Positions 2,213 through 42,670 of a stretch of 64,000 nt of DNA are shown here, piece by piece (position 1 is the stretch's first letter; every line of letters begins with the position of its first letter). The notes under the pieces are model-generated. The model had not been told where the DNA came from. It was given only the letters and a program-made list of their open reading frames with translations, and did not search any database. The stretch is taken from assembly GCA_029891345.1 (NCBI GenBank), contig CM057002.1, positions 22,616,795-22,680,794 on the forward strand, in the 5' to 3' direction. A program made the translations under genes and the position numbers. The DNA comes from Dryococelus australis (lineage: Eukaryota; Arthropoda; Insecta; Phasmatodea; Phasmatidae).

Positions 2213-3115
2213 GAAAAAAAAAAACCAAATACAAAGTAAATAGCAAGACGCACGTCGCAGCCAAGCAACTCATGATAATCCTTGTGACCACTCAAGTTGC
2301 ACCATGCAGCATTGAAACCGAAACCAAATACAAAGTAAATAGCGAGACGCACATCGCAGCCAAGCAACTCATGATAATCCTTGTGACCACTCAAGTCACG
2401 CCATGCAGCATTGAAACCACAACCAAATACAAAGTAAATAGCAAGACGCACATCGCAGCCAAGCAACTCATGATAATCCTTGTGACCACTCAAGTTGCAC
2501 CATGCAGCATTGAAACCAAAACCAAATACAAAGTAAATAGCGAGACGCACATCGCAGCCAAGCAACTCATGATAATCCTTGTGACCACTCAAGTCACGCC
2601 ATGCAGCATTGAAACCAAAACCAAATACAAAGTAAATAGCGAGACGCACATCGCAGCCAAGCAACTCATGATAATCCTTGTGACCACTCAAGTCACGCCA
2701 TGCAGCATTGAAACCACAACCAAATACAAAGTAAATAGCAAGACGCACATCGCAGCCAAGCAACTCATGATAATCCTTGTGACCACTCAAGTCGCACCAT
2801 GCAGCATTGAAACCACAACCAAATACAAAGTAAATAGCAAGACGCACATCGCAGCCAAGCAACTCATGATAATCCTTGTGACCACTCAAGTCGCGCCATG
2901 CAGCATTGAAACCAAAACCAAATACAAAGTAAATAGCAAGACGCACATCGCAGCCAAGCAACTCATGATAATCCTTGTGACCACTCAAGTCGCGCCATGC
3001 AGCATTGAAACCAAAACCAAATACAAAGTAAATAGCAAGACGCACGTCGCAGCCAAGCAACTCATGATAATCCTTGTGACCACTTAAGTCGCGCCATGCA
3101 GCATTGAAACCACAA
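2213..3115. repeat. Minisatellite, about nine copies of a 99-bp unit
   Basis: The landmark gcaactcatgataatcc recurs at exactly 99-bp steps (its ATG at 2272, 2371, 2470, 2569, 2668, 2767, 2866, 2965 and 3064). Units differ at a handful of repeated positions (gtcgcgcc / gtcacgcc / gttgcacc; gcaagacg / gcgagacg; ccaaaacc / ccacaacc), and variants are shared among non-adjacent copies, as expected from unequal exchange or gene conversion. Because 99 is divisible by three, one stop-free unit gives long open frames: 353 codons on the minus strand (2200-3261) and 271 on the plus strand (2272-3087). The minus frame encodes a 33-residue repeat containing AAWRDLSGHKDYHELLGCDV. Differences include replacements (R/C, D/N, F/C) as well as silent changes, so there is no clear sign of selection on protein. 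I treat it as non-coding tandem DNA. Confidence 0.9.
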
Positions 3116-3261
3116 CCAAAACTACAATCATCTGTTATGCCTCTACAGTTACTAACAGCATCCTTAAAAGTACAAGTATCATCAGCTAATTTTTTTACAT
3201 AAATCAGAAGAGTACTCTTTACAACGCGGATGAAACCGCCAACAAATTTTCTTATGATCAT

Positions 3262-8237: not shown

Positions 8238-8475
8238 TATAGGCCGTTCACTGTAAAGTGAGCACTTTTTAAAGCTGTTTCATCAGAAATAATAACCAAT
8301 AAATATATTTAATTAAGGCCTCGGACTTTTGGTTTTAGGTATGGTGAATGTTTACACTGTGTTTATTGCTCTCGTGGCAGGGTTTATATTAACAAGTGGT
8401 GGAAGGAAATAAATTGGTTGGAAGAAAAAAGTAACTAGGGCTTCAAAAGTGCTCACTTTACAGTGAACGACGTAT
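8238..8475 (+). mobile_element. TIR-A1 MITE beside the semaphorin donor site
   Basis: Complete copy: the left end gttcactgtaaagtgagcac and the right end gtgctcactttacagtgaac are inverted repeats carrying the same C-to-T change inside the TIR. The interior contains an ACACTGTGTTTATTGC stretch and a GAAGTGGTGGAAGG-like stretch, and is most like the copy at 27796-28034 (both share a TTCGAGGCC/GGCCTCGGA block). It ends only about 28 bp from the 5' splice site of the exon at 8504-8600, inside the intron. Confidence 0.9.
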
Positions 8476-8503
8476 ATTAAGGGGGAGGTGGCAAGGGACT
8501 GAC

Positions 8504-8600
8504 CTGGCGCCGACCAGCAGGGAACTGTGGTCCTTCTCCAGCAGTTTGAAGTGGTCCTTGTGCGACTCGTTACCCAGGAACCTCTGCGGCGTCTGCTCAC
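8504..8600 (-). CDS. Semaphorin-1a-type exon, start of the sema domain
   Basis: A 97-bp internal exon on the minus strand with an AG acceptor at 8601-8602 (TTGTGTGTTGCAG) and a GT donor at 8501-8503 (GCCAG then GTCAGT). In phase it reads EQTPQ followed by RFLGNESHKDHFKLLEKD and SLLVGA. This is the N-terminal beta-strand region of a semaphorin domain and resembles, from memory, insect Semaphorin-1a/Fasciclin IV, a membrane-bound axon guidance ligand acting through plexin A. The exon begins with two bases of a split codon (phase 1) and ends with AG of the next split codon. The following exon should open with a VYN-SL-type strand and the preceding one should carry the mature N terminus; neither was found, so both neighbouring introns are long or leave the window. 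The acceptor region is tandemly duplicated upstream, and a TIR-A1 MITE lies just downstream. Confidence 0.85.
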
Positions 8601-8875
8601 CTGCAACACACAAGAGACGCGCAGCTTTAGAGAGCGCCCAACCAAGCGCCGTACTTCTCACAGCTATGCTCACAAAGCCACACAGCCACACCGTCTTATC
8701 ACACAGCCAAACTACTCTCTGCTCGCCTGCAACACACAAGAGACACGCAGCTTTAGAGTGCGCCCAACCAAGCGCCGTACTTCTCACAGCTATGCTCACA
8801 AAGTCACACAGTCCTGCCACACCGTCTTATCACACAGCCAAACTACTCTCTGCTCGCCTGCAACACACAAGACAT
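8592..8875. repeat. Tandem duplication containing the exon's 3' splice site
   Basis: Three copies of a block starting TCTGCTC(A/G)CCTGCAACAC lie at 8592, 8718 and 8849 (periods 126 and 131; the last differs by a 5-bp insertion, and the third copy is truncated after about 25 bp). On the minus strand each copy holds CTTGTGTGTTGCAG plus the first bases of the exon (GTGAGCAG or GCGAGCAG), so the acceptor exists in triplicate at 8601-8602, 8727-8728 and 8858-8859. Only the first directly precedes the exon. Confidence 0.9.
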
Positions 8876-9446
8876 ACGCACGGCGTTATACTTGATTTGC
8901 AATGCCACGACGAGGTCTTCCCGACAGTCAGACACGACGTTACATCCCGACCATTTCCGCCACCAAAATTAGTTCAATTTGTACAATATCCCGACACAAT
9001 CCTTCCGACAAGGTGTTGCGTGGGCAAAATCCTAGAATGGCCAGTAACTTGCTATGGAGTGTGAAGAAATCACAGATCATTGTACACTATTTTGTTTTGA
9101 TAACTTTGTAAACGAAGTATTTTTGGATTTTGGAGCAGTTATTTTCTCACGAATATTTATTTTCGTCAATTCATCAGCTTTCTGTTACAAGAAAACCAGG
9201 ATGTACAGAAAAAAAAAAAAACCTTTTTTAATGCGAAATTTACCAGAGTAGTAAAAGCCGCACGACATTTCGTTTCGTAAGGTTATGTATCCGTTAGCGA
9301 GGCCGACCGGTCCGACGCCCGACGAAAGTAGAAATAGAATCTACTTTTGTCGGGGGTGACCTCGCTCCTGATTGGCCGATGAAAAATTTTCGTCCGTATC
9401 GGGACTGTTTTGTCGAACTGTCGGTTATTGTAAATCCAATTTTAGA
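8876..9446. other. Intronic sequence between repeat copies
   Basis: No coding segment recognised. It contains an A13 run near 9211 and a hairpin at 9318-9354, listed separately. Confidence 0.4.
9318..9354. repeat. Inverted repeat, 15-bp arms
   Basis: Arms 9318-9332 (cccgacgaaagtaga) and 9340-9354 (tctacttttgtcggg) are reverse complements with one mismatch, separated by a 7-base loop. It could be a terminator-like RNA hairpin or a foldback remnant; nothing around it decides. Confidence 0.7.
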
Positions 9447-9566
9447 GTGCGTTCAGGCACCGTACTTCTGCCGATCTGCCCTCAATGCTCTCATGCACAC
9501 CGCACCAGCCTGCCACACTGCCTTACCACACAGCCACACTGCCTTATCACACAGCCAAACTATCTG
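9447..9566. repeat. Diverged copy of the acceptor-region repeat
   Basis: Shares agtgcg, a CCGTACTTCT stretch, a duplicated GCCACACTGCCTTA and TCACACAGCCAAACTA with the tandem repeats at 8592-8875, but is clearly more divergent and lacks the intact TTGCAG acceptor. This shows that the repeated segment had more than one round of duplication. Confidence 0.7.
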
Positions 9567-29370: not shown

Positions 29371-30572
29371 CTGTACTTCGTACACGGTCAACTGGCCACT
29401 TTCGAAATACCTGCTGAGGATATACACGCATGCACATTGTGTATTCTTCCGTAATCATTTTAAATTAACATTTCCGTGGGCCTGATCAGTTCGTTCGTAC
29501 GCCGATCAGGTGAAACTGTGAGGTTATTAGAAATGTAAATACTCTCGAGAACTCACAAATGTTTATCTAACATTTAACTCGACGTTGAGACATGGGACTA
29601 CTTTGGCTTCGTAATCAACACCTTTATTGGGCGCATGCCAGACGTTGTGACATGGGACTACTTTGGCTTCGTCATCAACACCTTTATTGGGCGCATGCCA
29701 GACGTTGTGACATGGGACTACTCTGGCTTCGTCATCAACACCTTTATTGGGCGCATGCCAGACGTTGAGACATGGGACTACTTTGGCTTCGTCATCAACA
29801 CCTTTATTGGGCGCATGCCAGACGTTGTGACATGGGACTACTTTGGCTTCGTCATCAACACCTTTATTGGGCGCATGCCAGACGTTGTGACATGGGACTA
29901 CTTTGGCTTCGTCATCAACACCTTTATTGGGCTCATGCCAGACGTTGAGACATGGGACAACTTTGGCTTCGTCATCAACACCTTTATTGGGCCCATGCCA
30001 GACGCTGAGACATGGGACTACTTTGGCTTCGTAATCAACACCTTTATTGGGCGCATGCCAGACGTTGTGACATGGGACTACTTTGGCTTCGTCATCAACA
30101 CCTTTATTGGGCGCATGCCAGACGTTGAGACATGGGACAACTTTGGCTTCGTCATCAACACCTTTATTGGGCGCATGCCAGACGCTGAGACATGGGACAA
30201 CTTTGGCTTCGTCATCAACACCTTTATTGGGCGCATGCCAGACGCTGAGACATGGGACTACTTTGGCTTCGTCATCAACACCTTTATTGGGCGCATGCCA
30301 GACGCTGAGACATGGGACTACTTTGGCTTCGTAATCAACACCTTTATTGGGCGCATGCCAGACGTTGAGACATGGGACTACTTTGGCTTCGTAATCAACA
30401 CCTTTATTGGGCGCATGCCAGACGCTGAGACATGGGACTACTTTGGCTTCGTCATCAACACCTTTATTGGGCGCATGCCAGACGTTGTGCCAGTTAAAAT
30501 ATACGCAGGTAAGGGCAGCAACGTTTTTTTAAAGGTTGATTTTAAAAGTGCTCAGTCGTGAACAACCCATAC
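29371..30572 (-). mobile_element. TIR-A2 MITE expanded by an internal 60-bp tandem array
   Basis: The outer parts are an ordinary reverse A2 copy: a decayed left end (gtacacggtcaactggccac), AGGATATACACGCATGCACA, CTTCCGTAATCATTTTAAAT; and on the right GTTAAAATATACGCAGGTAA, an AAAGGTTGATTTTAAAAGTG stretch and cgtgaacaacccata. Between them, the A2 segment that in other copies reads GACGTTAAGATATGGAACTA (then the TTGTTGGGCGAAT part) is repeated. The element is therefore about 1.2 kb rather than about 430 bp. Confidence 0.85.
29581..30495. repeat. Minisatellite, 15 copies of a 60-bp unit plus a partial copy
   Basis: Unit GACGTTGTGACATGGGACTA, CTTTGGCTTCGTCATCAACA, CCTTTATTGGGCGCATGCCA, starting at 29581 and repeating with no length change to 30480. 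Variable sites: GTTGTGA/GTTGAGA/GCTGAGA, GACTA/GACAA, GTCATC/GTAATC, GCGC/GCTC/GCCC. GACAA, GTAATC and GCTGAGA variants occur in blocks and scattered copies, which suggests recent expansion and homogenisation. The 308-codon plus frame (20-residue repeat MPDVVTWDYFGFVINTFIGR) is a consequence of a stop-free unit divisible by three. Confidence 0.95.
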
Positions 30573-42349: not shown

Positions 42350-42670
42350 ATATATAATGGCCGCAGGAAAAGAGCAAAGGGCGATGGGTAGGATGCGTGC
42401 GCGCGACGACATAGCCTCCCAGCCGCATATCTTATTCACCGCGGCCGCGCGGCGGGCGATGCGTATCGAGATGTCGAGAACAATCACTCTGCGAAGGTCG
42501 ATACGGAACGAGATGTCGAGAACCATCTCTCTGCGAAGGTCGATACGGAACGGTAAAGGGGGTGCCGCGAGGCGAGGCAGGCCTAGTGTGCGGCCGAAAA
42601 CATTTCCTGCTGACATAATGGCAGCGACCAAACCCCATTTTTTTTTTTTAAGAGGAAAAGGAGCATTCCC
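42350..42670. other. CpG-rich segment with a two-copy 42-bp tandem repeat
   Basis: GAGATGTCGAGAACAATC...GCGAAGGTCGATACGGAAC occurs at 42468 and again at 42510 (period 42, two substitutions). It lies in a CpG-rich block with a GCGGCCGCGCGGC core. Frames are open on both strands but neither product is recognised. Confidence 0.4.

Follow-up and report, generated by a model that had tools for sequence, protein, structure and literature searches.

Tandem copies of a 3' splice site precede a Sema1a exon in the stick insect Dryococelus australis

A Sema1a exon and its three acceptors

We analysed a 64,000-nucleotide stretch of the Dryococelus australis genome (C10:22616795-22680794, contig CM057002.1; hereafter the window), in which a coding exon of the semaphorin gene Sema1a is preceded by three copies of its own 3' splice site, or acceptor. 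The exon lies on the minus strand at 8504 to 8600, is 97 nt long, runs from phase 1 to phase 2 and encodes (G)EQTPQRFLGNESHKDHFKLLEKDHSSLLVGA(R). It is followed by a GT donor at 8503-8502, and its R codon is completed by the start of the next exon, AG|GAACATC. It matched Drosophila Semaphorin-1A (PDB 6qp9) with E=1.4e-4; a Pfam search found no family for it, nor for the extended exon considered below. The searched assembly comprised 3,415,067,245 bases in 646 contigs and may leave out small scaffolds, a total of 1,879 scaffolds being given in PMC10268593. When semaphorin I of a grasshopper served as the query, 15 collinear matches were obtained on the minus strand of C10, from 22625416 down to 22451310, and the exon at 8600-8504 was the most N-terminal of them. 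Two of the 15 were weak when taken singly (E 1.08 and 2.65) yet stood in order. The gene is Sema1a, with its exons collinear on one strand; further semaphorin matches were found on C5, C7, and C9, with generally lower identity.

The exon that should precede this one was sought in the window, using an insect semaphorin protein and a YVQF-type motif, and in the 196 kb beyond it; neither search gave a convincing match, and a short or diverged exon would escape both. The first exon of Sema1a is expected to be short. Since the upstream exon was found neither in the 55 kb of the window nor in the 196 kb beyond, the upstream intron is probably very long, exceeding 55 kb and perhaps 250 kb. Scanning the window for tRNAs, and against Rfam at the gathering threshold, gave no hits.

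The sequence TTGTGTGTTGCAG occurs three times in the window, always on the minus strand, with AGs ending at 8601 (a1), 8727 (a2), and 8858 (a3). The acceptors are thus spaced by 126 bp (a1 to a2) and 131 bp (a2 to a3), or 257 nt overall. The earlier note, made from the same DNA, had placed a semaphorin exon here with its true acceptor at 8601 and two further acceptor copies upstream; the 6qp9 and C10 matches bear out the former, and the repeat search found the latter where it had put them. The exon-proximal acceptor a1 (8601 to 8613) forms with the exon start the sequence CAG|GTGAGC, which is also a match to a 5' splice site. Upstream of the exon, on the same strand, come unit 1 (8601 to 8726; 126 bp, equal to 42 codons if a2 is used), unit 2 (8727 to 8857; 131 bp), which carries a2 at 8727 to 8739 followed by GCGAGCAGA, and unit 3. 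The last is in two pieces: a tail at 8858 to 8885, with a3 (8858-8870) again followed by GCGAGCAGA, and a body at 9442 to 9562, which extends up to CACTCTAA and has an internal 21-bp duplication (9512-9561).

Each upstream copy is headed by nine exon-derived bases, GCGAGCAGA at 8726 and at 8857, while the true exon at 8600 begins GTGAGCAGA. The copies read GGC where the exon reads GGT, a glycine codon either way. The repeat had been described as including the first bases of the exon; this holds exactly for the acceptor, which is identical in all three places, but not for the exon bases, which differ. Just inside the exon, a1 can be told apart from the two upstream acceptors (GTGAGCAGACG versus GCGAGCAGAGA), and a 5-bp gap distinguishes a2 from a3.

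Origin and order of the duplicated units

Over 126 ungapped columns, units 1 and 2 differed by three substitutions, or 2.4%, in addition to the one 5-bp gap. The unit 3 body was more distant, with 82% identity to unit 2 (75 of 91 ungapped columns), and its alignment score of 53 compares with a mean of -24, a standard deviation of 8, and a maximum of 9 in 2000 mononucleotide shuffles. The near-identity of units 1 and 2 and this score mean that chance does not explain the repeat. In a search of the insect's own genome, which skips very common words, the unit was found at this locus only, together with a partial match of 9562-9526. A dispersed element was considered as the source of the unit and rejected, since the unit matched nowhere else in that search. 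The repeat is a local tandem duplication across an intron-exon boundary, in which nine exon bases were copied along with the acceptor.

That the copies are false, created by misassembly or by indels in unpolished long reads, is highly improbable. The authors of the assembly do state that short-read polishing might correct leftover long-read indel errors, but the array, at about 1 kb, is short relative to the read N50 of 35 kb (PMC10268593), and its units are set apart by substitutions, by the 5-bp gap, and by an inserted element. Even so, one wrong base could be enough to change the frame of the 42 codons.

The inserted element, a 553-bp miniature inverted-repeat transposable element (MITE), lies within unit 3 at 8889 to 9441. 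It has imperfect terminal inverted repeats (TIRs) resembling GCTGGATTTACAAT and is flanked by TAA at 9444-9442 and 8888-8886. Among the 40 of 2095 candidates that were scored in the genome search, the segment 8996-8884 matched 39 other places; of 41 matches in all, 39 fell in the MITE, one was the locus itself, and one was a 54-nt match at 8476-8423. In alignments of 590 to 611 columns, seven near full-length copies lined up with a segment lying within 9450 to 8882. Imperfect TIR-like ends were present in all eight MITE copies examined, and TAA was seen by eye on both sides of five of the eight, including the window copy, which differs by 6.5% from the consensus of the seven others. The family may be PIF/Harbinger-like, a kind of element with TIRs and a 3-bp TAA/TTA target duplication. 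Removal of the MITE in silico joined CACTCTAA to the a3 tail and restored a full unit. The third copy is therefore a whole unit split by a genome-wide MITE.

Within the MITE, an acceptor-like sequence, TTTTCTTGTAACAG, was noted at 9181 on the minus strand; it scored 5.02 with the generic matrix described below, against 4.98 for a1. On the other side of the exon, starting about 27 bp downstream of its donor, lies a 35-nt inverted repeat (8238-8476), the arms of which are 169 nt apart and 91% complementary. One arm (8476-8423) had a single genome match among the same 40 scored candidates of 2095, on C12, with 83% identity over 54 nt. The structure resembles a second, different MITE, so that the exon stands between two small inverted-repeat elements.

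The units themselves suggest how the array may have been built. At the native left edge the sequence is CCAGATAGTTTGG and at the copied junction it is GAGCAGAGAGTAGTTTGG, with CAGA as a microhomology between the exon start and the intron. Since the unit 3 body keeps AGG at the position of the 5-bp gap of unit 1, a deletion from unit 1 is the simplest account of the gap. The 126-bp, in-frame spacing thus seems to have been derived through this deletion, as an accident or a later gain. Acceptor a2 resembles a1 upstream of the AG and a3 downstream of it, which is what a later duplication by unequal exchange between the tails of a3 and a1 should leave. The divergences are about 18% for the unit 3 body, 6.5% for the MITE copy relative to its consensus, and 2.4% between units 1 and 2. 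In the proposed order, an old duplication with the CAGA microhomology at its junction would have produced units 3 and 1, the MITE would then have inserted into unit 3, the tails of a3 and a1 would later have exchanged unequally to yield unit 2, and the 5-bp deletion in unit 1 would have brought the spacing to 126. This order, with the MITE preceding the recent duplication, is likely rather than proven, because the numbers are small. The whole arrangement had been called recent; this suits the duplication that gave unit 2, but not the outer unit, which is older, as judged by its 82% identity and its interruption by the MITE.

Strength and use of the acceptors

To gauge the strength of the three acceptors, we built a matrix, with leave-one-out scoring, on 17 further semaphorin acceptors from this genome (14 from Sema1a and three from a C5 semaphorin). 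They were chosen by eye among 20 retrieved loci; the other three loci had only a spurious match (L053) or none (L054 and L055). The scores were 11.8 for a1, 13.7 for a2, and 15.2 for a3, with the other 17 ranging between 0.2 and 15.5. At least two acceptors of competent sequence thus stand before one exon, and since all the scores are within the range of the other 17, sequence alone does not silence a2 or a3. A generic 3' splice-site matrix, with general frequencies not fitted to this genome, gave 5.31 for a2, 4.98 for a1, and 4.27 for a3 (21st, 28th, and 50th of the 3349 minus-strand AGs in the window), placing a3 below a1, unlike the fitted matrix.

On balance, we consider it probable that a1 makes the normal mRNA, that the upstream copies are little used, and that the units have no conserved function. 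We take a1 as the normal acceptor because it alone gives the conserved N-terminus: the homology and the reading frame of the exon begin at a1, and the C5 paralogue exon has the same intron phase. Acceptors a2 and a3 would then be competent but accessory sites, a2 yielding small amounts of an isoform longer by 42 residues and a3 a transcript with a premature stop, probably destroyed. Several observations weigh against this reading of the locus. Both a2 and a3 outscore a1 in the genome-fitted matrix, and the local acceptor sequence gives no reason for a1 to dominate a2; the 126-nt spacing of a1 and a2 preserves the frame; and the order in which the MITE precedes the recent duplication leans on few differences (6.5% and 2.4%).

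Use of a2 would add 42 in-frame codons without a stop, EQRVVWLCDKTVWLCGFVSIAVRSTALGWALSKAARLLCVAG, and use of a3 would shift the frame and reach a stop, both as the earlier note had predicted; the stop is a TGA in codon 21. Its description of the insert as rich in cysteine and leucine also agrees with our count of three Cys, an odd number, and six Leu among the 42 residues. A frame of this length was open in 131 of 2000 dinucleotide shuffles, with an extra factor of 1 in 3 for the length. All three substitutions between units 1 and 2 are non-synonymous in the a2 frame as read from the alignment, which are too few for a test. The extension as predicted shows no sign of selection or coding constraint.

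The triplicated sequence could allow alternative splicing, and a2 and a1 might together serve as regulated acceptors producing two functional Sema1a isoforms, one of them with 42 additional residues before the sema domain. The locus resembles known alternative 3' splice sites in having two competent, in-frame acceptors before one exon, although use of a2 is here only predicted. The competence of a2 (13.7) and the preserved, open frame speak for such regulation. The three cysteines and the lack of any sign of constraint speak against it, as do the in-frame spacing, which appears derived by the 5-bp deletion, and the shuffles (131/2000), in which an open frame was not very unlikely by chance. 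We therefore regard two functional isoforms as unlikely, and prefer a1 as the normal acceptor with a2 accessory. RNA-seq data that include the ventral ganglion have been deposited under PRJNA930028 (PMC10268593).

Other tandem repeats were found in the window. In the downstream intron, at 2221-3120, a 99-bp unit occurs in nine copies; as its length is divisible by three and it contains no stop, both strands are open, for 355 aa (minus) and 290 aa (plus). Both strands are open too in 15 copies of a 60-bp unit at 29581-30487, probably in the upstream intron (327 aa on the plus and 321 aa on the minus strand), and a 42-bp unit is present in two copies, 95% matching, at 42467-42552.

A junction that also matches a donor

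The a1 junction, CAG|GTGAGC, is predicted to pair with the 5' end of U1 at -11.1 kcal/mol, compared with -8.0 for the exon's own donor. Only three of the 4161 minus-strand GT sites in the window are as stable, a1 included. At the 17 other acceptors, U1 pairing ranged from -0.8 to -9.3, the last (L047) being the only other value below -8 and possibly reflecting out-of-register pairing. As acceptors, seven AG|GT or AG|GC sites, a1 among them, equal or exceed the score of a1, and of these a1 is the strongest donor by 4.4 kcal/mol. Of the three acceptors, only a1 has the AGGT arrangement; a2 and a3 both read CAG|GCGAGC (-6.7). In a scan of 8900-8490, the only donor site at or below -6 before the exon, besides a1 and the GC sites of the two upstream copies, was a GC at 8604-8603, inside the a1 acceptor. 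If the upstream exon ends in TCG, which we assume from an insect protein, splicing to a1 would re-form TCG|GTGAGC at -8.3, close to the -8.0 of the exon's own donor, while the upstream copies would re-form a site of only -3.9. The dual site is not shared with the C5 paralogue, since that exon begins GGGCGG.

Boundaries of this kind are known elsewhere. Dual-specific AGGT sites show a 4.7-fold under-representation among the annotated 3' splice sites of humans, and tandem-repeat genes, UBC for one, are enriched for introns that use them (PMC10809524). Recursive splicing, which is repressed by the exon junction complex, can skip exons that re-form a 5' splice site (PMC6224609). At the Sema1a locus, a1 might similarly act as both acceptor and donor, so that the upstream units would be taken out step by step, or the exon would at times be lost through renewed splicing from TCG|GTGAGC, with the copies as stepping stones in a very long intron. 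The donor match of a1, the strongest among its seven acceptor-competent peers, the re-formed site (-8.3 versus -8.0), and the probable length of the upstream intron are in line with this mechanism. However, a2 and a3 carry GC and not GT (-6.7, re-formed -3.9); skipping of the exon shifts the frame, because the exon is 97 nt long; the terminal TCG is assumed, the last bases of the upstream exon having been found neither in the window nor in the 196 kb beyond; and the GT may be incidental, being a consequence of a Gly-Glu codon pair. Dual-specific or recursive use of the array thus seems to us rather doubtful. More speculative still is the idea that the dual-specific boundary of a constitutive semaphorin exon has been tandemly amplified in a very long intron as an early, UBC-like ladder of splice sites, in which the synonymous C/T difference in the glycine codon would set the ability to re-splice.

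The annotated exons subject to recursive splicing (RS-exons) resemble the one described here in opening with a strong 5' splice-site sequence, here after a probably very long intron (PMC6224609; Drosophila reporters, PMC8605326), but re-splicing at the stick-insect locus is only predicted and hinges on an upstream exon not found in the window plus 196 kb. UBC shares with this locus tandem units bounded by repeated splice sites, a unit length that is a multiple of three (here in one unit), and AG|GT at the true junction, strongly matching a donor. Unlike here, the UBC units are protein-coding and their AGGT boundaries are used both ways (PMC10809524), whereas the Sema1a units are intronic and two of their three boundaries are AGGC. 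A closer parallel is the potato RdRp gene PGSC0003DMG402000361, in which an intron was gained by tandem duplication across an intron-exon boundary (PMC4974935). There, as here, the duplication includes the 3' splice site and the exon start, both copies inherit the 3' splice signals, and a short ex-exon segment heads the next unit. In potato, that segment gave a GTAAG donor, and RNA-seq proved the new intron (PMC4974935). The stick-insect segment provides only GCGAGC, with no GT donor in either upstream copy, and the array comprises three units and a MITE. Our literature search found nothing related on duplicated acceptors or on phasmid semaphorin splicing.

The locus adds to the known cases of tandem duplication spanning an intron-exon boundary, resembles the potato RdRp gene closely, and combines a predicted in-frame spare acceptor with an unusually strong candidate dual-specific junction. 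Here such a duplication provides, in a neural guidance gene, a clean natural case of acceptors brought into competition, and its copies can be dated relative to each other and to a MITE. With it one can ask directly how the spliceosome chooses between acceptors that are nearly identical, and whether the cell exploits a dual-specific junction or buffers it.
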